From positions 1 through 64,000 of the forward strand of contig JAFDVU010000005.1 of the NCBI GenBank assembly GCA_018268835.1: a stretch of 64,000 nt of DNA, in the 5' to 3' direction. Numbering within the stretch: the first letter of the stretch is position 1; every line of letters starts with the position of its first letter. Positions 3,135 to 16,226 of the stretch are shown here, one piece after another. Made by a program: the position numbers and the translations under genes. A model generated the notes under the pieces. That model made no database searches. It was given only the letters and a program-made list of their open reading frames with translations, and was not told the DNA's origin. Origin of the DNA: Acidobacteriota bacterium (GTDB taxonomy: Bacteria > Acidobacteriota > Terriglobia > Bryobacterales > Bryobacteraceae).

Positions 3135-4184
3135 ATGAAACTCACAAGACGAGATTGGGGGAAGATCGCGCTGGCATCGCTGCCTCTGTCGAGAGCGTTT
3201 GGCGCGAAAATGATCGATTCGAAGTTCGGGGGCGTCCAGATCGGCGCCATCACCTACAGCTTCAACCGGATCGCCAGTCCCGATCCGGAAGCGATCATCA
3301 AGGCATACGTCGAAATCGGCCTGGGCGAGGCCGAGTTGATGTCCAACCACTGTGAAGCTCTCGCCGGCGCTCCCGCCATGCCCATGTTCGGTCGCGGCCC
3401 CGGAGCCGGCCGCGCACCGGCAGCACCCGGAGCACCGGCCCCGGCCCCCGGTGGAGCACCCGGACAGGCCGGCGCCCGCCGTGGACCCGGAGGCGGCCGC
3501 GCGCCGCTCACTCCCGAACAGCAGGCCGAGCGCCAGGCGGCGATGGAGAAGCTCGCCCAGTGGCGCGCTTCCGCCAACGCCAATACCTGGAAAGGCGTCC
3601 GCAAAAAGTTCAACGATGCCGGCGTCGATGTCGCCCTGCTCTGCTACAACATGCAGGACGCCATGAAGGACGAAGACATCGAGTACGGGTTCAGCATGGC
3701 CAAGGGCCTCGGCGTGAAAGGCATCACCACCAGCACCACCCTCACCATGGCCAAGCGCATCGCGCCCGTCGCCGACAAGCACAAGCTGTTGGTCGGCTAT
3801 CACGGCCACGACGCCACCAACGATCCCAACCAGACCGCCACGCTGGAAAGCTACGACACCCTGATGGCCTATGGCAAGTACAACGGCATCAACCTCGACA
3901 TCGGCCACTTCACCGCCGCCGGATACGACGCCGTCGCCTTCATCAAGCAGCACCACGCCCGCATCACCAACCTGCACGTGAAGGATCGCAAGAAAGACCA
4001 CGGCCCCAACGTCGCCGTCTGGGGCACGGGCGACACCCCCATCAAACCCGTGCTGCAACTCCTCAAAACGGAAAAGTACCCCATTCCGGCGAACCTGGAA
4101 TTGGAGTACCCCATTCCGGAAGGTTCGGACATCGTCGCCGAGGCCAAGAAGTGCCTCGCCTATGTAAAGAGCTGTCTCGTTTAA
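3135..4184 (+). CDS. Exported sugar phosphate isomerase/epimerase-like TIM-barrel protein
   Basis: The 349-residue protein belongs to the xylose-isomerase-like / AP-endonuclease-2 TIM-barrel superfamily. It starts with a twin-arginine-like leader (TRRDWGK, then an alanine/leucine stretch), so it is probably exported folded. C-terminal metal- and substrate-site signatures are visible: VGYHGHDA, LDIGHF, HVKDR at 281-285 and LELEYP. Residues about 86-126 are a Gly/Ala/Pro/Arg-rich insertion absent from typical members, probably a surface loop. AAAGGA lies 7 bases before the ATG as a Shine-Dalgarno site. The next gene, an oxidoreductase, starts 16 bases after the stop, so the pair likely acts on one carbohydrate. 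The substrate cannot be read from sequence. Confidence 0.85.
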   Translation: MKLTRRDWGKIALASLPLSRAFGAKMIDSKFGGVQIGAITYSFNRIASPDPEAIIKAYVEIGLGEAELMSNHCEALAGAPAMPMFGRGPGAGRAPAAPGAPAPAPGGAPGQAGARRGPGGGRAPLTPEQQAERQAAMEKLAQWRASANANTWKGVRKKFNDAGVDVALLCYNMQDAMKDEDIEYGFSMAKGLGVKGITTSTTLTMAKRIAPVADKHKLLVGYHGHDATNDPNQTATLESYDTLMAYGKYNGINLDIGHFTAAGYDAVAFIKQHHARITNLHVKDRKKDHGPNVAVWGTGDTPIKPVLQLLKTEKYPIPANLELEYPIPEGSDIVAEAKKCLAYVKSCLV

Positions 4185-4200
4185 CACCGGAGAATCGACA

Positions 4201-5823
4201 ATGGCTATCACCAGGCGTTATTTCTTCTATGGCAGCCTTCTGGCCGGCGCTATACCGGCGGGAGGCTTCGGCAGTACACCATCTCTCAAAGCGGCCGGCT
4301 ACAAGTCGCCCAACGAAAAGTTGAACATGGCGTCCATCGGCGCCGGCGGACAGGCGGCAGCCAACATTTCCGCCGCCGCGCCCACCGAAAACGTCGTTGC
4401 CCTTTGCGATGTGGACGACCGCCGCGCCGAGGGCATGTACAAGCGCTTCGACAAGGCGCCCAAGTATAAAGACTTCCGCAAGATGCTCGACAAGGAAGCC
4501 AACAACATCGATGCCGTCATCGTCGCCATCCCGGATCACATGCACGCCAGTGCCGCCATCTGGTGCATGGAGCGCGGCAAGCACGTGTACGTGCAGAAGC
4601 CCCTCGTTCGCAGCATCTGGGAAGCGCGCCAACTGAGAGCGGCCGCCACGAAGTACAAGGTGGCCACCCAGATGGGCAACCAGGGCTACTCCAACGAGGG
4701 CACGCGCCAGTGCGCCGAGATCGTCTGGCGCGGCGACATCGGCAGCGTCGGTGAAGTCCACGCCTGGAGCGACCGCCCGATGTGGCCGCAGGGCCTCACC
4801 GAGATCCCCAAGCCGGATCCGGTTCCCTCCACGCTCGATTGGGACCTCTGGCTCGGCATCGCCGAAAACCGTCCCTTCACCGCCGATGGCAAGACCGAAC
4901 CCGACCGCAATGGCGGCTTCTTCTACCAGCCCTTCAACTGGCGCGGCTTCTACGATTTCGGCTGCGGCGCGCTGGGCGATATGGCCTGCCATATCCTGGG
5001 TGCCCCCAACATGGCCCTGCACCTCTCCAACCGCAAGGTCATCGGCGTCGAGTGCATCAAGAAGGAGGGCACCAGTTCCTTCATGTTCCCCAAGTCGTCG
5101 GTCATCCGCTACGACTTCGCCGCCTACGGCAACATGCCTCCGCTCAAAATCTTCTGGCACGACGGCCTCAAGGAAACACCCAAGATCGATGGCGTCCCCG
5201 AAGGCGAGTGGCTCGGCGATCCGCCCATGCTCCCCGGAGGCCTCGGCGGACGCGGCGGACGCGGACGTGGCGCGGCCCCGGGCGGCGCTCCCGCTGCCGG
5301 TGCTGCCGGCGCGGCCGGCGCGGCCGGACGCGGCATGGCCATGGGCCCGGGCATGATGCGCCCCGCGGACAACGAGTTCCACTCCCCGGGCCGTGTCTTC
5401 AACTGGGAACAGTTCCAGGCCCTCAAGGAGTCCACCACTCCCCTGCGCTTCCCGCAGCCCGACGGCAGCCTCTTCATCGGCGACAAAGGTATGCTCACCA
5501 CCGGCACCTACGGTGACGTGACCCGTCTCATCCCGGTAGAAAAGATGAAGGACTTCCGCATGCCGGAACCGCTGCTCACCCGCTCGCCCGGCCACATGCG
5601 CGACTTCATCCGCGCCTGCAAGGGCGGCGACCCCGCCTGCTCCAACTTCGACGTGGCCGCTCCCTTCGTGGAATGGATGCTGCTCGGTGTCATCGCCCTG
5701 CGCAGCGAGGGCAAGCTCGAATACGACCCCGACAAGATGCGCATCACCAACAATGCCGAAGCCAACAAGTACCTCAAACCCAACTTCCGCAAAGGTTGGG
5801 AGTTCCACACCGTCAAGTCGTAA
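4201..5823 (+). CDS. Exported Gfo/Idh/MocA family NAD(P)-dependent oxidoreductase
   Basis: The 540-residue protein has a Tat leader (ITRRYFFYG) and an N-terminal Rossmann fold (ASIGAGGQAAANI, then VVALCDVDD), followed by DHMHA and VYVQKPL. The last is the family EKP motif with Gln for Glu but with the lysine kept. The C-terminal half has the expected alpha/beta domain. Residues about 347-385 form a Gly/Arg/Ala-rich insertion. GGAGA 9 bases upstream supports the ATG, and the gene directly follows the TIM-barrel gene as an operon. Family members oxidise or reduce sugars and sugar-like polyols; the large exported group in Acidobacteria and Planctomycetes is poorly characterised, so the substrate is open. 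Confidence 0.88.
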   Translation: MAITRRYFFYGSLLAGAIPAGGFGSTPSLKAAGYKSPNEKLNMASIGAGGQAAANISAAAPTENVVALCDVDDRRAEGMYKRFDKAPKYKDFRKMLDKEANNIDAVIVAIPDHMHASAAIWCMERGKHVYVQKPLVRSIWEARQLRAAATKYKVATQMGNQGYSNEGTRQCAEIVWRGDIGSVGEVHAWSDRPMWPQGLTEIPKPDPVPSTLDWDLWLGIAENRPFTADGKTEPDRNGGFFYQPFNWRGFYDFGCGALGDMACHILGAPNMALHLSNRKVIGVECIKKEGTSSFMFPKSSVIRYDFAAYGNMPPLKIFWHDGLKETPKIDGVPEGEWLGDPPMLPGGLGGRGGRGRGAAPGGAPAAGAAGAAGAAGRGMAMGPGMMRPADNEFHSPGRVFNWEQFQALKESTTPLRFPQPDGSLFIGDKGMLTTGTYGDVTRLIPVEKMKDFRMPEPLLTRSPGHMRDFIRACKGGDPACSNFDVAAPFVEWMLLGVIALRSEGKLEYDPDKMRITNNAEANKYLKPNFRKGWEFHTVKS

Positions 5824-5829
5824 CCAGGT

Positions 5830-5855
5830 AGGGTAGGCCTCCGGGCCTACCCTTT
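5830..5855 (+). terminator. Strong terminator-like hairpin
   Basis: A perfect 10-bp stem (AGGGTAGGCC with GGCCTACCCT) and a TCCG loop sit 6 bases after the oxidoreductase stop and end in TTT. A second hairpin follows at 5868-5885. Confidence 0.6.
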
Positions 5856-5867
5856 CCCCACGGTAGC

Positions 5868-5885
5868 GCAGGCCTCCCGGCCTGC
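5868..5885 (+). terminator. Second tandem hairpin
   Basis: GCAGGCC and GGCCTGC pair perfectly over 7 bp around a TCCC loop, followed by CTTTG. It has the same layout and nearly the same wording as the hairpin just upstream, which suggests a repeated intergenic element. Confidence 0.5.
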
Positions 5886-5978
5886 CTTTGGATCGAATCG
5901 GAATCTCCGCCGCCACACCCGATTTCAGACCCCGTCCCCATGCGCCCGTCCGCGCGCCGGTATAGCATTAGAGATCAA

Positions 5979-7997
5979 ATGACCTGGAAGTCTTTGTTGA
6001 TCTTTCTCTGCCTCGCGCCGGCGCTGTTCCCGCAGGCGGCCCCGCAGCCCGGGATCGAGGCGCGCAAGGCGCCCATCATCACCCACGACGGACTCAAATT
6101 CCGCGACCTCAACAAGAACGGCGCCCTCGATCCTTACGAGGACTGGCGCCTTCCCGTCGACAAGCGCGTCGCCGACCTGCTCTCCCGCATGACCGTCGAA
6201 GAGAAAACCGGCCTCATGATCCACTCCTCGCTCGCCGGTTTCACCGGGCCCAACGGCGACGTCCTCGGCCTGCCCGCGGCCGGCGGACGCGGCGGACGAG
6301 GCGGACGCGGCGCTCCCGCCGGCAGCGCGGATCGCGCTTTCCAGGGACGCCCCAATCAGAACAACGTGGAGCCCATGGGCAGCGCCAACCCCACCCAGTT
6401 GGTCGTCGAGCGCAACGTGCGTTACATCCTGGTCCGCCCCAATCAGGGCGAGGCGCCGGAGATCACCGCGAAGTTCCATAACGGCCTCCAGGAAATGGCC
6501 GAAGCCACGCGCCTCGGCATCCCCATCATCTTCAGTACGGACCCGCGCCACGCCGGCGGACGCGGCGGCGCCAACGCCAGGCCCGTGATCTCCCAGTGGC
6601 CCGATCAACTCGGCCTCGCCGCCGCGCGCGATCCCGAGCTCGTCCGCCAGTTTGGCCGGATCGCCGCCAGGGAACTCCGCGCCCTGGGCATCCAGTGCCT
6701 CCTCGGCCCCATGGCCGACACTGCCACCGAACCGCGCTGGAACCGCATCAACGGCACCTTCGGCGAAGACGCCAATCTCAACGCGACCCTCATCAAGGCC
6801 ATCGTCGAAGGATTTCAGGGCAAGCGGCTCGGACCGGAAGGCGTCATGACCATCACCAAGCACTTCCCCGGTGACGGCCCCGTCAAAGACGGCTACGACG
6901 GCCACAACAACTACGGCAAGTGGACCATCTATCCCGGCAATAATTTCGACTACCACCTCATCCCGTTCCGCGCGGCCATCGAAGCCGGCACCGGCGGCTT
7001 CATGGGCGGCTACTTCATCCCCGTAGGCCACGACACTGCCGGCATCAACTTCTCCAAGGCGATGGTCAACGGCCTGCTGCGCGAGAAACTCGGCTTCCAC
7101 GGCCTGGTGGTCACCGACTGGCTGCGCAACATGCCCTGGGGCGTCGAGAAGCTCTCCGAAAAGGACCGGCAGAAGACCATGGTGCTCGCCGGCGTCGATC
7201 AGATCGGCGGCGATAACGACCCCCGCGTCATCCTCTCCAGCGTCAAGGATGGCGGCATCCCCATGGCCGTCCTCGATGCCGCGGCGCGCCGCATCCTCCG
7301 ACCCATCTTCGAACTCGGCCTCTTCGAGGACCCCTACGTCGATCCCGAGCACGCCCGCGCCACGGTTGCCGGCGAACCCTTCCTCGCCGCCGGCTACGCC
7401 GCGCAGGTGCGCTCCACCGTGCTGCTGAAAAACGCCGGCAACGTCCTCCCCGCCGCCTCCGGCAGGAAGATCTACGTGGAAGGTATCGATCGCGAAGTGG
7501 CCGCGCGCTACGGCACCGTGGTGGACGATCCCAAGTCCGCCGACCTCGCCCTCCTGCGCGTGGCCAGCCCCGCGACGACCTACCCCTACGGCGGAGCCTT
7601 CGCCATGGGCGCCGGGCGCGGCGCGGCCGCTTCCACCCCGCCGCCGCGCCCCACCTACGGCATCACCCTCGCCTACGGCAACGCCGCCAACTGGAGCGTG
7701 CTCGAAGACATCCGCAAGGTTGCCGCCACCGGTACCCCTACCGTCGTCATCGTGAACATGGATAAACCCGTGATCCTCACCGAATTCATCGATGCGGTGG
7801 CCGGCGTGTTCGGCGCCTTCGGAGCCGGCGACGCCGCCCTGCTAGACGTCGTCTTCGGCAAAGCCAAACCCACCGGCAAGCTGCCCTTCGATCTGCCTGC
7901 TGACATGCCGTCCGTCATGGCCCAGGCAGCCGACCTGCCCTTCGATATGGACGATCCTCTTTTCAAATTCGGATTCGGCCTGACTTACAGCCGCTAA
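5979..7997 (+). CDS. Glycoside hydrolase family 3 (beta-glucosidase type)
   Basis: This is a secreted exo-glycosidase of about 672 residues. I chose the ATG at 5979 over 5940 because it starts a clean signal peptide (MTWKSLLIFLCLAPALF). GH3 marks are RMTVEEKTGLM near the N-terminus, KHFPGDG at 294-300, and VVTDW with Asp380 as the likely nucleophile. The C-terminal (alpha/beta)6 sandwich follows, and the protein ends in the typical FGFGLTYSR. Gly-Arg insertions lie at about residues 101-118 (GGRGGRGGRG) and 191-197 (AGGRGGA). The gene sits between an oxidoreductase and a GH78 rhamnosidase, so it probably trims plant oligosaccharides. The exact sugar specificity is unknown. Confidence 0.9.
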   Translation: MTWKSLLIFLCLAPALFPQAAPQPGIEARKAPIITHDGLKFRDLNKNGALDPYEDWRLPVDKRVADLLSRMTVEEKTGLMIHSSLAGFTGPNGDVLGLPAAGGRGGRGGRGAPAGSADRAFQGRPNQNNVEPMGSANPTQLVVERNVRYILVRPNQGEAPEITAKFHNGLQEMAEATRLGIPIIFSTDPRHAGGRGGANARPVISQWPDQLGLAAARDPELVRQFGRIAARELRALGIQCLLGPMADTATEPRWNRINGTFGEDANLNATLIKAIVEGFQGKRLGPEGVMTITKHFPGDGPVKDGYDGHNNYGKWTIYPGNNFDYHLIPFRAAIEAGTGGFMGGYFIPVGHDTAGINFSKAMVNGLLREKLGFHGLVVTDWLRNMPWGVEKLSEKDRQKTMVLAGVDQIGGDNDPRVILSSVKDGGIPMAVLDAAARRILRPIFELGLFEDPYVDPEHARATVAGEPFLAAGYAAQVRSTVLLKNAGNVLPAASGRKIYVEGIDREVAARYGTVVDDPKSADLALLRVASPATTYPYGGAFAMGAGRGAAASTPPPRPTYGITLAYGNAANWSVLEDIRKVAATGTPTVVIVNMDKPVILTEFIDAVAGVFGAFGAGDAALLDVVFGKAKPTGKLPFDLPADMPSVMAQAADLPFDMDDPLFKFGFGLTYSR

Positions 7998-8021
7998 TAT
8001 CACCAGGGAGCGAACTCATCC

Positions 8022-11000
8022 ATGAAACGATTCGTCATCGCGCTGTCCATCCTCCTCTGCGCCACTCTTGCGGCCCACGCCGCCATCGTACTCAAGAACC
8101 TTCAGGTCGAGTACCGCGCCACCCCTCTGGGTATCGATGTCGCGCAGCCGCGCTTCGCCTGGCAGATGGACGCCACCGCCGGAGAGCGCGCCTGCGCGCA
8201 GAGCGCGTACCAGATCCAGGTCCGCGATCCCAAAGGCACGGTGGTCTGGGACACCGGCCGCGTCCCCGGCGCCGAATCGCTCGGCATCAAGTATGCCGGC
8301 ACTCCGCTGCAACCCGCGACCCGTTATACCTGGACCGTCACCGCGTGGGACCAGGCCTCAGCCAAACTCACCGCTACCAGTTGGTTCGAAACCGGCCTCA
8401 TGGATCCCGCTCCCGATGCCCGCGCCTGGGGTGGCGCGAAGTGGATCGGTGGCGGCAATGAAGACCTCGTCCTCTACTCGCCGTACCTGGCCATCTTCGA
8501 TGCAAAGTACTCTCTCACCATCGCGCCCGGCAGTACGCGCGCGAGCTTCGTCTATGGCGCCAACGATTCGCGCCTCATGGACAAGTACAAAAACATCTAC
8601 CAGGTCCAGAGCGCCAGGGACCAGAGCTACATCAAGCTCGAACTCGATATCTCCGGCGTCGAAGGCACGCCCGGCGGAAAGGCCAGACTCCACGTCTACC
8701 GCGCCGGATACAAAGACACCGACACTCCCACGCAGCCGCTGAAGACCTTCGACATCTCGACCGACGTCATCAACGGTGCGAACAAGAACGCCGCGCACGT
8801 CATCCAATTCAGCAGTGCGTTCGGCCAGATCGCGGTCACCATCGACGGCAGCGCCACGTTCGCCGGCGCGCCCCCGCCCCCACCCGCCGGCGGACGCGGC
8901 GGCTTCGGCGGACGCGGTGGCGCGGCCAACTCGGTCAACCTCAACCCCGTCGGATCCGGCGGCAACTACCTTGCCTTCGGCATGCTTTGCGACATGGGCT
9001 TCTCCGTGGACGCCGGCCAGCGCGCCGCCTTCAGCGACGTCGCCATCCGCAACAATCGCGCCCCCAATCACGTCCTCTTCCACGAGGACCTCGCCGCCGC
9101 CCCCTACAAGGGGATCTATGCCGATGCCGCCGCCGCCCGCTCCGGGCTCACCGTCTCCGGCGGCGCCTATGTCCTGGATGGCGGCGGCAAGGGCGCCTTC
9201 GTCGTGCGCAACCCCAGCCACAACTCCACCTCCATGCTGCGCGCCACGTTCAAGACAGCGAAGCCCATCGGCCACGCCCGCCTGTACGTCACCGCACGCG
9301 GCATCTACGAGGTCTACCTCAACGGCAGGCGTGTCGGCGGCGACCACTACAACCCCGGCCTGACGCAATACAACGTCACCCACCTCTACCAGACCTACGA
9401 TGTGACTCCGCTGCTTCGTCCCGGCGCCAACGCCATCGGCGCCATGCTCGGCGAAGGCTGGTGGAGCGGTCTGCTCAGCTTCGGCAACATCTGGAATCAC
9501 TTCGGCGACCGGCAGTCGCTGCTTGCCAAACTGGCCATCACGTACCAGGACGGCACCTCCGAGACCGTCATCACCGATCCCGCAACCTGGAAATACTACG
9601 GCAACGGTCCGGTCGTCTACAGCAGCCTCGACATGGGTGAGATCTACGATTCTTCCCGCGAGCGCGCCGTCGAAGGCTGGACCACCGCCGCCTACGTGGA
9701 CACCAAATGGAAGCCCGCCGTCGCCGTTCCGCTCGAAGGCACCACCTTCTCCGGCGCCGAAGCCGGACGCGGCGGCGTCCCCGGTCCTGCCTTCACCTGG
9801 GACAAGCTCTCCCTAATCGGCCAAATCGGCAACAACGCGCAGGTCTTCCGCATCCTCACCGCGAAGAGCGTCAAGGAAGTGCGTCCCGGCGTCTTCGTCT
9901 ACAACCTCGGCCAGAACATTGTCGGCGTCCCGCGCATCACCGTCGCCGCCGGCACTCCCGGCGCGAAGTTCACGCTGCGTTACGCCGAAATGCTCTACCC
10001 GGACCTGAAGGAGTCCGGTAAGAACGTCGGCATGATCATGACCGAGAATTACCGCGCGGCCATCAGCCAGGATGTCTACACCATGCGCGCCGGCAGCCAG
10101 GTCTTCCAACCGCGCTTCACCTCGCACGGTTTCCAGTACATCGAAATCACCGGCATCCCCAAGCCGCTTCCGCTCGAAGCCGTGCAGGGCGTCGTCATCA
10201 GCTCCGTCCACGAGTTGACCTCCGACTACAAAACCTCCAACCAGAAGGTCAACCGCCTCTGGTCCAACCTGGTCTGGTCCAACGTGGACAACTTCCTGAC
10301 CATCCCCACGGATTGTCCGCAGCGCAATGAGCGCATGGGCTGGTCCGGCGACATCAACGTGTTCTCCCGCACCGCGACCTACGTGTCCAACGCCGACCAG
10401 TTCCTCACGCGCCACATGTACGCCATGCGTGACGTGCAGACACCGGCCGGCAAATTCACCGATGTCGCGCCCGTGGGCGGAGGCTTCGGCGGCGTCCTCT
10501 GGGGCAGCGCCGGCATCGTCGTCCCGTGGGAGGCGTACCTGCAATACAAGGACACCGGCCTGCTCGAACAGCACTATCCCGCGATGGTGAAATATATCGA
10601 CTACCTGGAGACCACCATCGATCCCAAGACCGGCCTGAGCTCGGACAGCCAGCTTGGCGACTGGCTCGGTCCCCAGAATAACGCGCTCGGCACAGCCTAC
10701 CTCGTCACCGCCTATCACGCCTACGACCTCGACATCATGGCCAAAGTGGCCGGCATCCTCGGCAAGTCCGCCGACGCCGCGCGCTTCCAGGCCATGTACG
10801 AAAAACGCAAGGCGTACTTCAACTCGACCTTCGTCAACGGCGAAAAGAAGACCCTGGCCACTGGTGGTGGACGCGGCGGACCTGGCCGGGGCGCGACCGC
10901 CGAGCCGCCGCAATTCCGCCTCGCCGACACGCAGACCTCTTACGCGGTGGGCCTCGGCATGGGTCTGTTCAACCCGGCGGACGTCCCGCAGATGGCGAAG

Positions 11001-11657
11001 AATCTCGCCGCCGCCGTCATCCGCGAAAACAAGGACGACGACGGTTCCATGCGCCCGCCCTACTCGCTGATGACCGGGTTCATCGGCACCGCGTGGATCA
11101 GCAAGGCGCTCTCCGACCACGGTCTCAGCGAGGTCGCCTACCGCCTGCTGCTCAACGACCAATACCCGTCGTGGCTCTACGCGATCGATCAGGGCGCCAC
11201 CTCCATCTGGGAGCGGCTCAACGGCTACACGGTGGAGAACGGCTTCGGTGGCAACAACAGCATGAACTCGTTCAACCACTACTCCTTCGGCGCGGTCGGC
11301 CAGTGGATGATGGCGTATTCGCTCGGAATTCAGCGCGAGGAGCCGGGGTTCCGGAAATTCATCCTGCAGCCCGAGCCCGACCCCACCGGCGGCATCGCAT
11401 CGGCCGAGGGCCACTACGATTCCATGTACGGCCGCATCGCGAGCGCGTGGAAGGTGACCGGCAAGACGTTGACCTACCAGGCCACCGTCCCGGCCAATAC
11501 TACGGCGACGCTCTATCTCCCGGCAAGCGGCGCCGCCGGTGTAACAGAAAGTGGGACCCCCGCCGGTGAGTCAAAGGGAGTAACGTTCCTCAAATACGAA
11601 AACGGAAAAGCGATCTACACCCTGAAGTCCGGCACCTACACCTTCACGGCAAAGTAA
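8022..11657 (+). CDS. Glycoside hydrolase family 78 alpha-L-rhamnosidase
   Basis: The 1211-residue secreted enzyme starts with a signal peptide (MKRFVIALSILLCATLAAHA) followed by the N-terminal fibronectin-like domain of the family (LKNLQVEYRATPLGIDV). An extra beta-rich region at about 150-340 interrupts the usual layout and carries a Gly-Arg insertion near 285-304. The carbohydrate-binding jelly-roll domain follows. The (alpha/alpha)6 catalytic domain contains TDCPQRNERMGWSGD, GDWLGP and GATSIWERLNGYT, the acidic clusters that hold the acid/base residues in GH78. A second GGRGG insertion lies near 948-963. It is longer than the usual 900-1000 residues because of these insertions. It starts 24 bases after the GH3 stop and likely shares its transcript. 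The role is removal of terminal rhamnose from pectin (RG-I) or plant glycosides. Confidence 0.92.
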   Translation: MKRFVIALSILLCATLAAHAAIVLKNLQVEYRATPLGIDVAQPRFAWQMDATAGERACAQSAYQIQVRDPKGTVVWDTGRVPGAESLGIKYAGTPLQPATRYTWTVTAWDQASAKLTATSWFETGLMDPAPDARAWGGAKWIGGGNEDLVLYSPYLAIFDAKYSLTIAPGSTRASFVYGANDSRLMDKYKNIYQVQSARDQSYIKLELDISGVEGTPGGKARLHVYRAGYKDTDTPTQPLKTFDISTDVINGANKNAAHVIQFSSAFGQIAVTIDGSATFAGAPPPPPAGGRGGFGGRGGAANSVNLNPVGSGGNYLAFGMLCDMGFSVDAGQRAAFSDVAIRNNRAPNHVLFHEDLAAAPYKGIYADAAAARSGLTVSGGAYVLDGGGKGAFVVRNPSHNSTSMLRATFKTAKPIGHARLYVTARGIYEVYLNGRRVGGDHYNPGLTQYNVTHLYQTYDVTPLLRPGANAIGAMLGEGWWSGLLSFGNIWNHFGDRQSLLAKLAITYQDGTSETVITDPATWKYYGNGPVVYSSLDMGEIYDSSRERAVEGWTTAAYVDTKWKPAVAVPLEGTTFSGAEAGRGGVPGPAFTWDKLSLIGQIGNNAQVFRILTAKSVKEVRPGVFVYNLGQNIVGVPRITVAAGTPGAKFTLRYAEMLYPDLKESGKNVGMIMTENYRAAISQDVYTMRAGSQVFQPRFTSHGFQYIEITGIPKPLPLEAVQGVVISSVHELTSDYKTSNQKVNRLWSNLVWSNVDNFLTIPTDCPQRNERMGWSGDINVFSRTATYVSNADQFLTRHMYAMRDVQTPAGKFTDVAPVGGGFGGVLWGSAGIVVPWEAYLQYKDTGLLEQHYPAMVKYIDYLETTIDPKTGLSSDSQLGDWLGPQNNALGTAYLVTAYHAYDLDIMAKVAGILGKSADAARFQAMYEKRKAYFNSTFVNGEKKTLATGGGRGGPGRGATAEPPQFRLADTQTSYAVGLGMGLFNPADVPQMAKNLAAAVIRENKDDDGSMRPPYSLMTGFIGTAWISKALSDHGLSEVAYRLLLNDQYPSWLYAIDQGATSIWERLNGYTVENGFGGNNSMNSFNHYSFGAVGQWMMAYSLGIQREEPGFRKFILQPEPDPTGGIASAEGHYDSMYGRIASAWKVTGKTLTYQATVPANTTATLYLPASGAAGVTESGTPAGESKGVTFLKYENGKAIYTLKSGTYTFTAK

Positions 11658-11850: not shown

Positions 11851-12135
11851 GTGCTGACAGAATGGGATCCCGGCAAAGCGCGGCTGAATGTTAGGAAACA
11901 CGGCATTTCCTTTGCCGATGCCGTGGCTTCGCTCGAAGATGAGGGAGCGCTGACAATGCGAGATCCCTTCTCTGACGACGAAGAGCGTTGGGTGACGATG
12001 GGTCGTGACGTCTTGGGCCGCGTGCTCGTTGTCGTCTACACTTGGCGCGGTGAGAGTGTGCGCCTGATTTCGGCACGGAAGGCGACGGCGCGTGAACGCC
12101 GGAGATACGAGGATGTAAATGAAACGCGAATATGA
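11851..12135 (+). CDS. brnT: BrnT family toxin (RelE-like fold ribonuclease)
   Basis: The 94-residue toxin of the type II BrnT/BrnA system starts with the typical TEWDPGKARLNVRKHGISF and ends with the family block VRLISARKATARERRRYE. Characterised homologues are RelE-fold ribonucleases that stop translation. The frame is open further upstream to an ATG at 11746, but that extension does not look like BrnT. The GTG at 11851 fits the homologue N-terminus and lies just 9 bases after a TACAAT -10 box, so the mRNA would be leaderless or nearly so. The gene overlaps brnA by 17 bases. Composition is less GC-rich than the flanking hydrolase genes, which suggests an acquired module. Confidence 0.9.
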   Translation: MLTEWDPGKARLNVRKHGISFADAVASLEDEGALTMRDPFSDDEERWVTMGRDVLGRVLVVVYTWRGESVRLISARKATARERRRYEDVNETRI

Positions 12136-12373
12136 TTTTTCAAAAGCGAAGCGCGGGCCGGTAATCCCGGTTCCCAAGGGAAAAACGCGAATCACCATCC
12201 GGCTAGACGAGGACGTGATCACCTGGTTCCGGACTCGGGTAGAGAAGGCGGGCGGCGGCAACTACCAAAGTCTCATCAACGATGCCTTACGGCAGCACAT
12301 CGCCCAGGCGCGCGAACCGCTGGAGGAAACGCTTCGACGAGTAGTCCGGGAGGAAATCAGGCGGGCGAGTTAA
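12119..12373 (+). CDS. brnA: BrnA family antitoxin (ribbon-helix-helix)
   Basis: The 84-residue protein has the hallmark N-terminus MKREYDFSKAKRGPV, which in this family wraps the toxin. A ribbon-helix-helix DNA-binding part follows (TRITIRLDEDVITWFR, then GGGNYQSLINDALRQ). It should neutralise BrnT and, as a dimer, bind the operon promoter; the palindrome at 11834-11847 is the obvious target. The ATG lies inside the end of brnT, so translation is coupled. The toxin-first order is the usual one for this family. Confidence 0.92.
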   Translation: MKREYDFSKAKRGPVIPVPKGKTRITIRLDEDVITWFRTRVEKAGGGNYQSLINDALRQHIAQAREPLEETLRRVVREEIRRAS

Positions 12374-12591
12374 TGAGTCTTCGGACCAGTGCAGTCAGCG
12401 TTCAATGTCCGATGCCGACTTATCGGGAGTAATCCGGTCCAAAGTCTGAACGGCATTCTGCTCACAACCCCGCGGCCAGATTCCCGAACGGGACTTGGAA
12501 ACAGCTCCTCGGGCCTGGGCATTTCGGTCTACCTTGGCGCTCTCAAATTCGGCCGAAAAGCGTGAGCCAATCTGTGATGTACTGAGTATTC

Positions 12592-13488
12592 ATGTGGCCG
12601 GAATCGGACATAAAGTACGATCACACCGCTTTGAGCGGAGCGAGACCAGAGGAACAGATGAGGATCATGGAGGCCTGGTTTCGGGCTCGTTACGAAGACC
12701 CCGCCTTCCGCACTCCGTACGAGTCCGCTGAGGGCGGATATATTTGGATCTCAGGCGGCCCATACGATGCAAGAGAACAACTCGAAGTGGAATTCGGAGG
12801 CACCGTTCCCGACGAGGTGATCGGACAATTGGCCGAGAAACTGAACGGCGAGTCCCTGGAGTGGGCACCTGTTCCTAGCCCAGACGACTACGACCTTGAG
12901 CTCTACGATGCGGTTCGCGAGAACGACAGAGAGACGGCAACTCTGGGGGATGCCTTGAACGCAATATCCAGCCTGCTCACCGTAAACATTGCCGGCCCTG
13001 AAGTGTACGTCCATCGAAGGCTGCTGTTTGCGAACGTCATCGCCGCGATTGAGACATTCCTCTCCGATACATTCATCAATCGTGTAATGGGGAACGACAT
13101 ACTGTTCCAACGCTACCTCGATACCGAAAAGGCATTTCAGGAGCGGAAGTGCCCACTGAAGGATGCACTGCGCATGGCCGCTGAGATCAAGGCTGTCGCG
13201 GCTAAGGAACTCATCGAGATGGTATGGCACAATATCGCCAAGGTGAAGACACTGTACGCCGATGTTCTCCATATTGACCTCGGCGACATAGGGCCCCTAG
13301 CAAAGGCAATCAACATCCGGCACGATATAGTGCATCGGAACGGACGGCAGAAGGACGGTACTGAACGGGAAATTTCGGCCACCGAGATCACCGACTTGAT
13401 CGGTCTTGCGCGAGGCCTCGCAATCAGAATTGACATGGCGCTCAATCCGTCCCCAGTTATCGAAGATCCTGAAGGCGCACCATTTTAG
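12592..13488 (+). CDS. HEPN domain protein with HEPN/RES-type N-terminal domain
   Basis: The 298-residue protein is cytoplasmic with no signal or membrane segment. Residues about 10-90 (including YESAEGGYIW, GGPYDAREQLEVEFGG and VPDEVIGQLAEKL) resemble the short domain found before HEPN and RES domains. The remainder is helical and carries INIRHDIVHRNGR. Its Arg243-x4-His248 fits the R-x4-6-H active-site signature of HEPN ribonucleases. HEPN RNases are common effectors in toxin-antitoxin and abortive infection systems, and brnTA lies just upstream. An inner ATG at 12658 is a less likely start because the conserved N-terminal part would be cut. No cognate nucleotidyltransferase or antitoxin is adjacent. 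Confidence 0.7.
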   Translation: MWPESDIKYDHTALSGARPEEQMRIMEAWFRARYEDPAFRTPYESAEGGYIWISGGPYDAREQLEVEFGGTVPDEVIGQLAEKLNGESLEWAPVPSPDDYDLELYDAVRENDRETATLGDALNAISSLLTVNIAGPEVYVHRRLLFANVIAAIETFLSDTFINRVMGNDILFQRYLDTEKAFQERKCPLKDALRMAAEIKAVAAKELIEMVWHNIAKVKTLYADVLHIDLGDIGPLAKAINIRHDIVHRNGRQKDGTEREISATEITDLIGLARGLAIRIDMALNPSPVIEDPEGAPF

Positions 13489-13552
13489 ATATCGGGGCAA
13501 AACGGGCGAAAACGGGACAGACGCATCTTCCAATTCGGTGGCTGGCTGCGAA

Positions 13553-13572
13553 CCCCCCGCGGTTTTGGGGGG
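13553..13572. terminator. C6/G6 hairpin between convergent genes
   Basis: CCCCCC and GGGGGG can pair around the 8-base loop GCGGTTTT in the 163-base gap between the HEPN gene (plus) and the Gp37-like gene (minus). It could end transcription from either side. No U-tract is seen. Confidence 0.35.
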
Positions 13573-13651
13573 CGTTGCCCGTCACCGAATTACCATTCAG
13601 GAACGACCATCGTGTGGCCGCAACGCGGAGACATTCTGCAGAGCAGCCCTT

Positions 13652-14374
13652 CTACAGGACAACCAACGGCAGCGGCATTTGGTCCCATGTGCGTCCGTCC
13701 AGCGTCCTGCCGGCCTTCTTCTTGTTTACGCCACCCCACTGCTTAAAGAAAAACTGGACGCCGCCAAGGCGGCACTGATCGCGAATGTTGCGGACCCATT
13801 CCGGCGCCATAGGTCTGGCGCCAGGTCCGGATTCGCCGCCGACGATTAACCAGTCGATGCCCCGAAGATTGATCTTGCGAAGCGGCCCAAGAAGTGGTTC
13901 GAGGGACAGAAATTTAACGTAAGCATCGGTCCGGCGCAGATGGTCAATGCGCATGGCGTAATCCTCGTTTTCGACGCTGACGCCCATCCAGATCTGAGGC
14001 TCCCAGTTGAGCATCTTGCTCAGATCCAGTAGACGCTCTGAGCGCTTTGTGAGCACTTGGTATTGATGCCAGTGCGCCCTCCGCATGATATCGAAAACAT
14101 CGCGGATATACCGGACCGGAACATCCTCATGAAACAGGTCGCTCATGGAATTTACGAAGATGCGCTTTGGCGACTTCCATTTCAGCGGTAGTTCGAGCAT
14201 CTGCGGTTGCAGCGTTACGTCGAAGCCGTTACGGTAATTCGCCTGGCCCATGGCCTGCAGTCGGTTGGCGAGCCGCTCGGCATAGCAGTGTTTGCAGCCC
14301 GGGCTGATCTTCGTGCAACCCGTCACCGGATTCCACGTTGCGTCCGTCCACTCGATATGTGAGTTCGTCGCCAT
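13652..14374 (-). CDS. Phage Gp37/Gp68-like (DUF5131) three-Cys protein
   Basis: The 240-residue protein belongs to the Gp37/Gp68 family. Near the N-terminus it has [14 protein letters not shown], then Cys20, Cys27 and Cys30 (C-x6-C-x2-C, with [16 protein letters not shown]). Further blocks are [49 protein letters not shown] and FFFKQWGG. The Cys triad and the barrel-like order of strands recall radical SAM enzymes, though the spacing is not the classical CxxxCxxC. The gene starts 11 bases after tcmP ends, as one operon. Partners of this kind recur together in genomes and phages, but no reaction has been established to my knowledge. The best inference is nucleic acid or metabolite modification, possibly in phage defence. 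Confidence 0.85.
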
Positions 14375-14385
14375 CTCTTCACAGT

Positions 14386-15216
14386 CTATCGTTGCCGGTA
14401 CTTGTTGAAGATGTCGTCAACGATGTTCGCTGCAACCGGCTTTTGGGAGGCGAAATACAAATAGTAGATGACGGATTTGGTTTTCGTCGTCATCGGCATG
14501 GGCCTGGACACGAACTTGAAGCCCGCTTTGGTTTTCAACCGCTCGCGCCATGCCGCTTCGAACTGCTCATTCGAAACCTTTTCAGGGTCGCCGAACAGGT
14601 TGCCGGAACTGTCGAAGGCTGCGGCTTCCCATGTGTCGTCGCCCCATAGGCGGGTTAGCTGGTCGATTTTGCTCTGCACCGCCTTGTCGCGGTTCCTGCG
14701 GAGAGCGTTCCGGTTGATATCCATAATCATGAAGTTCAGGAAGACCTCAATTGATCCGGACCTACCGGCAGCCTCAATGACCTCCCATTTCAGATTAATG
14801 TTGTACGGATCCAGCAGGCAAAGGGCGCGGCGGTAATCGCTGTACTTCGCGCGCGGAAACACCTTCTGGATCAGAGCGTCGTTGCAGTCGGCGCTTTCGA
14901 TGAAAACATCGTCCCGTTCACCGATTAGACTCCTGAGTTGCTCTGCTCTGCGCGGGTTGGCATCGATGAAGTGGTACTCCGAAAACGGTGGATTCGTGTT
15001 GACTGCGATGAGTGGACTTCCCTCCACGATCTCGCCAGTCGCTCTAGAGAGATGAAGGCCAGGGCCCGCATACGCGTCGATGTACAGCCATTTCAGGCTG
15101 GGAATCTTCTGGCGCCGCTGGGCGTCGAGGATGGTGGAATAGGCAGAGGCGTATTCCCTGATGATGGCCAGCTTCACCTCGGACCATATGCCGATCTCGT
15201 CGTAATCGACCGCCAC
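14386..15216 (-). CDS. tcmP: Three-Cys-motif partner protein TcmP
   Basis: The 276-residue protein has the TcmP N-terminus ([17 protein letters not shown]). Methyltransferase-like Rossmann signatures follow: [10 protein letters not shown] at about 44-53 (motif I position) and [14 protein letters not shown] at 131-144 (motif IV position). Next come [12 protein letters not shown] and a helical C-terminus. TcmP is named for its constant neighbour, a protein with an N-terminal three-Cys motif, which is exactly the gene 11 bases downstream. SAM-dependent methyl or related group transfer is suggested by the motifs but unproven. The ATG at 15216 gives the family length. Lower GC than the flanks and the neighbouring toxin-antitoxin genes mark an accessory island. 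Confidence 0.87.
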
Positions 15217-15419
15217 AACAGAACTCTAGCAGAATGTTTGGGCTACGGCCACTGACCGGTCCCCGGAACGGATTACTCCCGTGAAACGCGCTAGCTTCCG
15301 GAGGAAATCTTCGACCCGCCGCTCGCCAGTACCCGGGAGATCTCACGCGGCGGCCCTTTCCGGAGCCGCACCGCCGTTCCTGCCGCAGAACGATGCACTT
15401 TGCGGCGTACTGATGCTGT

Positions 15420-15731
15420 ATGCCGCATACGAAAGTGCCGAAGCGGAAGCCACTGGTCCGCCATCCGAGGAAAAAACTTGACCGCAAACCGGAAGCCCGA
15501 CATACGGTCGCTCTTCCGTCGCTGGTCGCCAGCCAGGTGGAACGGTATGCGGAGACTGCCGGCGCCAGTATGAGCAAGGCGATAGCCGCATTCGTACGGT
15601 TCGGTCTCCAGAGCCAGGCGGACCGGAAGCGCGAGTTCTTCAAAAGACTCAAGGAGAATCTTGGCGACGATGATCCCGCCGATCAGGATCGGTTAGTGGA
15701 CGAGTTCCGCGCGTTGATCCTGGGTCGCTGA
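15420..15731 (+). CDS. Small ribbon-helix-helix-like protein
   Basis: The 103-residue protein has a basic N-terminus (HTKVPKRKPLVRHPRKK). A segment resembling a ribbon-helix-helix fold follows (RHTVALPSLVASQVERYA, then GASMSKAIAAFVRFGL), with an acidic helical tail. This layout suits a DNA-binding antitoxin or small repressor. No toxin-like partner is adjacent on the same strand. The start has no clear Shine-Dalgarno site. It could be a regulator of the divergent tcmP operon, 203 bases away. The fold call is from pattern only and the function is unknown. Confidence 0.5.
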   Translation: MPHTKVPKRKPLVRHPRKKLDRKPEARHTVALPSLVASQVERYAETAGASMSKAIAAFVRFGLQSQADRKREFFKRLKENLGDDDPADQDRLVDEFRALILGR

Positions 15732-15770
15732 GCCATGCCGGCGAAGCCTCGAGCACTCTTCTGGTGCCCC

Positions 15771-16226
15771 CTACACCTTCACGCCGCACATCTCGGCGAA
15801 CCGCTCCTCGGTCGCCTTCACCCGCCCGGCCACCACGTTCAGCACCCGGTGCAGGATCGCCGCCCCCAGCGCCGGATCCTGGAAGCACCGCTGCTTCATC
15901 CGCGCCCCGTCGATTTCCAGCGCCCGCGTCTCCTCCCGCGCCCGCACCTGGAACAACGTGTCCTGACGGTCCAACAGCGAACTCCACCCGAATACGCTCC
16001 CGCCGCCCAACGACTGCACGCACACCACGTAGTGCGGCGTCCGCAACTCCACCACCACGCTGCCGGTCAGCAGCAGGTAGAAATACGTGGAGCGCTGCCC
16101 GTCCACCAGCACCACATCGTTTTCCGCGAACGTCACCTCGCGCGCCAATGACGCCAGGCACGTCACCTGTTCCTCGCTCAACCCCTGCGTGAACTCGTGT
16201 GCCTTCAGAACATCAAATAGAGCCAT
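15771..16226 (-). CDS. Cyclic nucleotide-binding domain protein without HTH
   Basis: The 151-residue protein consists almost entirely of one cNMP-binding (CRP-like) beta-barrel: VTFAENDVVLVDGQ, YFYLLLTGSVVVEL, GGGSVFGWSSLL, then RALEIDG. It ends in a short helix without the DNA-binding HTH of Crp/Fnr regulators. An ATG at 16226 follows a GGGGGG Shine-Dalgarno-like run; an upstream GTG at 16238 would place that run inside the gene. Stand-alone domains of this kind are thought to act through protein contacts. The partner is not evident; the gene is divergent from an MFS transporter. Confidence 0.82.
   Translation of the reverse strand: MALFDVLKAHEFTQGLSEEQVTCLASLAREVTFAENDVVLVDGQRSTYFYLLLTGSVVVELRTPHYVVCVQSLGGGSVFGWSSLLDRQDTLFQVRAREETRALEIDGARMKQRCFQDPALGAAILHRVLNVVAGRVKATEERFAEMCGVKV

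Follow-up and report, generated by a model that had tools for sequence, protein, structure and literature searches.

The window studied here (64,000 nucleotides of contig JAFDVU010000005.1 from an Acidobacteriota bacterium) raises the question of how a single 14-bp word, GGCGGACGCGGCGG, came to be repeated in neighbouring genes for proteins of unrelated folds. Four exact copies were found within 3.7 kb, at 5245–5258, 6282–6295, 6555–6568 and 8889–8902, together with one-mismatch copies at 9762–9775 and 10866–10879, all on the plus strand and all where the first-pass annotation had placed them. Additional one-mismatch copies were identified at 6291, 6300 and 8907. With up to two mismatches allowed, the window contained 36 matches compared with 9.6 ± 3.3 in dinucleotide shuffles. 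It had also been claimed that the word always reads Gly-Gly-Arg-Gly-Gly (GGRGG); translation agrees for five of the six copies then named, but the copy at 9762 (GCC GGA CGC GGC GGC) encodes AGRGG.

On the basis of Pfam matches, the first host gene (4201–5823, plus strand) encodes a Gfo/Idh/MocA oxidoreductase with a Tat-like N-terminus, and the copy at 5245 lies in a hypervariable Gly/Arg/Ala/Pro loop of this protein (5233–5373, plus strand, residues ~345–391). The other hosts, on the same strand, are a GH3 glycosidase (5979–7997, in an ORF listed from 5940) and a GH78-type alpha-L-rhamnosidase (8022–11657), each with a signal peptide. In the GH3 protein the copies at 6282, 6291 and 6300 fall within hypervariable loop 1 (6270–6360), delimited by orthologue alignment, and that at 6555 within loop 2 (6549–6584), located 3' of a conserved DPRH motif. 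The GH78 protein carries copies in three loops, namely loop 1 (8862–8927, residues 281–302; 8889 and 8907), which is Gly/Pro/Gln/Arg-rich and of variable length, loop 2 (9756–9788, residues 579–589; 9762) and loop 3 (10851–10913, residues 944–964; 10866). The earlier description of the hosts as exported hydrolases does not hold for the Gfo/Idh/MocA protein, which is an oxidoreductase. A TIM-barrel protein (AP_endonuc_2/xylose-isomerase-like by Pfam; 3135–4184, plus strand) with a Tat-like N-terminus has a Gly/Pro/Ala/Arg-rich stretch at 3366–3509 (residues ~78–125, from the translation of this single sequence). Elsewhere in the window, positions 12001–16000 have a G+C content of 57.8%, compared with 64–71% in the rest, and an ORF on the minus strand (13652–14374) presumably encodes a phage Gp37/DUF5131-type protein.

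Alignment with homologues revealed variable loops at identical positions, which are missing from some homologues. Loop 1 of the GH3 protein reads GGRGGRGGRG in the window and GGRGAPGGGRG, GGRGGRGGGRG or GGRGGGGRG in relatives of 79–83% identity, while GGRGG was not found in this loop in relatives of 74% and 57% identity and the loop itself is missing from the homologues of family f3 (~42% identity). Among orthologues of more than 70% identity the Gfo/Idh/MocA loop ranges from ~24 to 61 residues, with Gly, Arg, Ala, Pro and Met in shifting order and encoded by different codons. Loops 1 and 3 of GH78 also vary among orthologues, and loop 3 is missing from distant GH78 relatives. The closest solved homologues, 9UL7 (GH3 loop 1), 8TDF (Gfo/Idh/MocA loop) and 3W5M (GH78 loop 3), do not have the respective loops. 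That orthologues vary precisely at these places and solved homologues do without them agrees with the original view of low-complexity, probably solvent-exposed loops.

The view that every copy sits in an insertion is, however, not supported at 6555 and 9762, where loop length is about the same in close orthologues. Loop 2 of GH3 reads GAGRGA or TAGRG- in these, with equal length or one residue fewer, and since the loop is shared in this way the word at 6555 arose by substitution. In the four nearest orthologues loop 2 of GH78 is also AGRGG but uses different codons, so that two of the six copies in the window are products of substitution within shared loops. The orthologue alignments and solved homologues of the three families show that the loops are not present in every member of their families and did not enter as single insertions of one DNA unit.

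The word was then considered at the level of the genome (7.46 Mb, 367 contigs), which contains 45 exact copies of GGCGGACGCGGCGG compared with 18 of the reversed word. Twenty six of the 30 genome copies examined (one being a duplicate record) read GGRGG in frame. In a 1.17 Mb sample of the same genome, with genes called by a simple codon-usage caller, 31 of 37 copies were in frame 0 on the sense strand. Part of this sample was picked for containing the 14-mer and the unbiased part is small, hence the use of whole-genome counts as well. Sense copies numbered 33 against 3.6 ± 1.5 in a shuffle preserving codons and protein, a comparison made in this sample enriched for word-bearing contigs. In the genome-wide count, one of the checks that had been proposed, the 14-mer is over-represented, and nearly all copies lie in the GGRGG frame.

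Such an excess, with four exact copies in 3.7 kb, 45 genome-wide and a uniformity of wording beyond what codon usage by itself would give, could be taken to mean that one word was placed into unrelated genes by gene conversion or by a small DNA element that spreads. This explanation is rejected on the evidence of frame, wording and orthologues and is considered extremely improbable. Copies independent of frame, strand and gene, as looked for in a REP- or MITE-like element, were not observed; nearly all share one reading frame (26/30 and 31/37 for the word, and 56 of 58 sites of the longer peptide GGRGGRGG in stretches of genome G028 and three genomes of the window's genus). Nor is the DNA of the unit conserved across copies, as codons differ between orthologues where the amino acids agree, substitution produced two of the six copies in the window, and a given peptide is worded in many ways across the genus (29 distinct 14-mers among 44 in G004). 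A doubled form of the word, a 23-mer, occurs in at least 118 stretches, in all frames and in both sense and antisense orientation; the sources include Streptomyces, Cupriavidus, Burkholderiales, Planctomycetota, Gemmatimonadetes and archaea. Because these phyla are unrelated and the frames are spread, the occurrence of the 23-mer across phyla is a case of GC-rich convergence. The initial suggestion of spread or conversion is therefore contradicted by the differing wording of orthologues, by the doubled word in unrelated phyla and by the unlikeness of adjacent units described below.

Replication slippage was rejected as the usual source of the loops. Adjacent GGR units were found to be no more alike in their wobble bases than shuffled partners in G028 (30 sites), the genus (23 sites) and the window's own genome (26 sites), and as neighbouring units do not have wobble bases in common, recent slippage is not how such loops usually arise. 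GH3 loop 1, with its units GGCGGACGC GGCGGACGA GGCGGACGC, resembles a local 9-bp duplication and is possibly a single local exception. It is very probable that what recurs in these genes is a type of protein loop rather than a DNA element.

The wording of the 14-mer was also compared at its sixth base. Genome-wide, variants with A, C or G at this position number 45, 37 and 48 (the split between C and G being a hand count from the match list), and the fractions in frame are 26/30, 4/15 and 5/15, respectively. When the pattern GGC-GGN-CGC-GGC-GG is in frame, GGA is used in ~60% of cases across the genome, compared with 21% before CGC in the own-genome sample when neither flanking residue is Gly, an excess of ~2.9-fold (about threefold) above plain Gly-Arg codon-pair use. 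In the same sample, partly picked for the 14-mer, the share of GGA before CGC is 0.18, 0.25, 0.28, 0.40, 0.51 and 0.68 with zero to five Gly neighbours within five residues and 0.66 with six or more, while that of GGC falls from 0.51 to 0.07. GGA is favoured ahead of C-initial codons, and more so at higher local Gly density.

The excess of the 14-mer thus looks like a codon-context preference that grows with Gly density, since the share of GGA is already raised at one to two Gly neighbours, where tandem repeats play no part. This effect accounts for the ~2.9-fold excess in part but not fully. It had been argued that identical DNA wording in unrelated genes favours spread; the codon-context effect and the varied wording in relatives count against that argument. 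Avoidance of palindromes was rejected as an explanation for the preference for GGA and makes at most a contribution: GGCC and GCGGCCGC occur at 0.75 and 0.64 of the synonymous-shuffle expectation, but CGGCCG and CCGCGG are near expectation in a Markov model. As a separate observation, CAGCTG (the PvuII site) is strongly avoided in the genes of the own-genome sample (the window and loci L031–L090), with 21 occurrences against 495 expected from synonymous shuffles, and in all sampled DNA, with 25 against 199 expected from a Markov model. The Markov model also gives low values for GTCGAC (0.38) and AAGCTT (0.30), and the avoidance of these three sites is possibly the imprint of a restriction-modification system.

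At the protein level, the window's own genome has 29 occurrences of GGRGGRGG in any spelling, compared with 5 of the reversed control; across nine genomes of the genus the figures are 178 and 37. The spellings of this peptide and of GGRGG vary both within and between genomes. The 28 other genomes of the family hold 86 occurrences, of which 43 are from G028, most members having 0–3. A genome from another family of the same class (G057) has 33. Across the phylum the motif is scattered, being present in 145 of 297 genomes with a few having 10 or more. Several independent gains are likely, since G028 and G057 are as rich in it as the genus of the window, in contrast to the 0–3 occurrences of most relatives.

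The proteins concerned are predominantly exported, signal peptides being called by a simple hydrophobic-segment rule. Thirty two of 36 scorable GGRGGRGG hosts from two genera bear a signal peptide, compared with about half of the neighbouring genes; the figure was 16 of 18 in each set, G028 and the window's genus (Fisher p = 0.005 and 0.002, respectively). In the own-genome sample, GGRGG was found in 28 of 354 signal-bearing proteins and in 6 of 473 others, several of these six being truncated or Tat-like. Others among them are what we take to be an Obg-like GTPase (L061) and an alanyl-tRNA-editing-like protein (L052), in which the same five residues occur, yet apparently as old conserved cytosolic motifs rather than variable loops. 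Within the small unbiased subsample the association of GGRGG with signal peptides was not significant (p = 0.65), and that of Arg-containing Gly-rich segments gave p = 0.035.

Taken from alignments, codon usage and predicted export, it can be proposed with good confidence that these segments are RGG-like hypervariable surface loops, probably disordered, of exported enzymes in one acidobacterial lineage, and that the 14-mer is the favoured spelling of GGRGG. From one orthologue to the next the loops stay at fixed positions, whereas their length and codons change freely; their composition remains Gly/Arg/Ala/Pro, and they are found mainly in proteins with a signal peptide. They would be surface features away from the catalytic core, with selection maintaining their composition (flexible, soluble and with few acidic residues) and not their sequence. 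A role as flexible, solubilising or spacing segments of secreted enzymes may be suggested tentatively, at a little under an even chance.

The main rival to flexible or solubilising loops is that the loops are functionless, being filled with Gly, Ala, Arg and Pro by replication slippage and GC pressure because the surface of exported proteins tolerates insertions. This is plausible, though clearly short of an even chance. Close orthologues would be expected to differ freely in the length and sequence of such neutral loops, and the loops to be made up of G, A, R and P, as is found, and GH3 loop 1 does resemble a local duplication. However, the wobble bases of adjacent units show no likeness at the 30, 23 and 26 sites, and the restriction to exported proteins, and to some genera among relatives of fairly similar GC, calls for an additional reason. 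The composition also argues against it, as Asp, Glu and Lys are depleted 4- to 8-fold in Gly-rich stretches of the own-genome sample, with no such loss of Gln, Met or Phe; in these stretches Val is depleted to a like extent, Arg is enriched 1.3-fold and Ala and Pro are retained.

The same composition bears on the idea, raised in the first-pass annotation, of binding patches for anionic polymers or envelope; these would be Arg-rich patches with the envelope, exopolysaccharide, humic matter or a pectic substrate as partners. The retention of Arg, the scarcity of acidic residues and the export of the hosts, some of them sugar-acting, fit this proposal, but Lys is as depleted as Glu. In most orthologues the net charge of the loops is +1 to +3, which is ordinary when compared with windows of equal length from the same proteins, and so small a charge gives no support to a strong patch for anions. 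The proposal is considered unlikely and survives in a weak form at best, the loops making at most weak contacts with anionic surfaces.

Clustered RGG and GRG triplets within a Gly-rich stretch are the hallmark of eukaryotic RGG/RG (GAR) motifs, such as those of fibrillarin and nucleolin, and are also found here. The likeness is at word level (GGRGG, GGRGGFGGRGG), whereas the hosts here are exported bacterial proteins, the stretches are loops of folded enzymes and nothing pointed to an RNA-binding context. It is unlikely that several lineages independently gave many unrelated exported enzymes RGG-type disordered loops whose composition is held by selection. Such loops would be the extracellular equivalent of RGG regions in eukaryotes, and might serve to cluster secreted enzymes through weak multivalent contacts, either on anionic polymers or at the cell surface. 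Low-complexity regions are common in bacterial proteins, and a survey of prokaryotes reports Arg to be strongly under-represented in them and Arg-rich examples to be typical of RNA-binding proteins (PMC6821194). The loops resemble the surveyed regions in their Gly/Ala/Pro-rich stretches and in GGC as the leading Gly codon (PMC6821194), but differ from them in that Arg is mildly enriched and that they belong to exported enzymes.

No description of RGG-like loops in exported bacterial enzymes was found in the literature searched, and it may be that the protein loop pattern is undescribed while the DNA word itself is ordinary. The case shows that a striking repeated DNA word can stem from codon context together with a peptide that recurs, without any mobile element. 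The Arg/Gly-rich loops in exported enzymes of some acidobacterial genera run counter to the reported scarcity of Arg (PMC6821194), and could bear on how soil bacteria hold secreted enzymes soluble or close to the cell. Apart from these enzymes, an ORF at 4250–7708 of locus L045 (G000:C111:100001-111529) was observed to have a stretch of ~60 residues of the GGRGGFGGGRGG type, similar to the GAR domains of eukaryotes, and the ORF contains three exact copies of the 14-mer.
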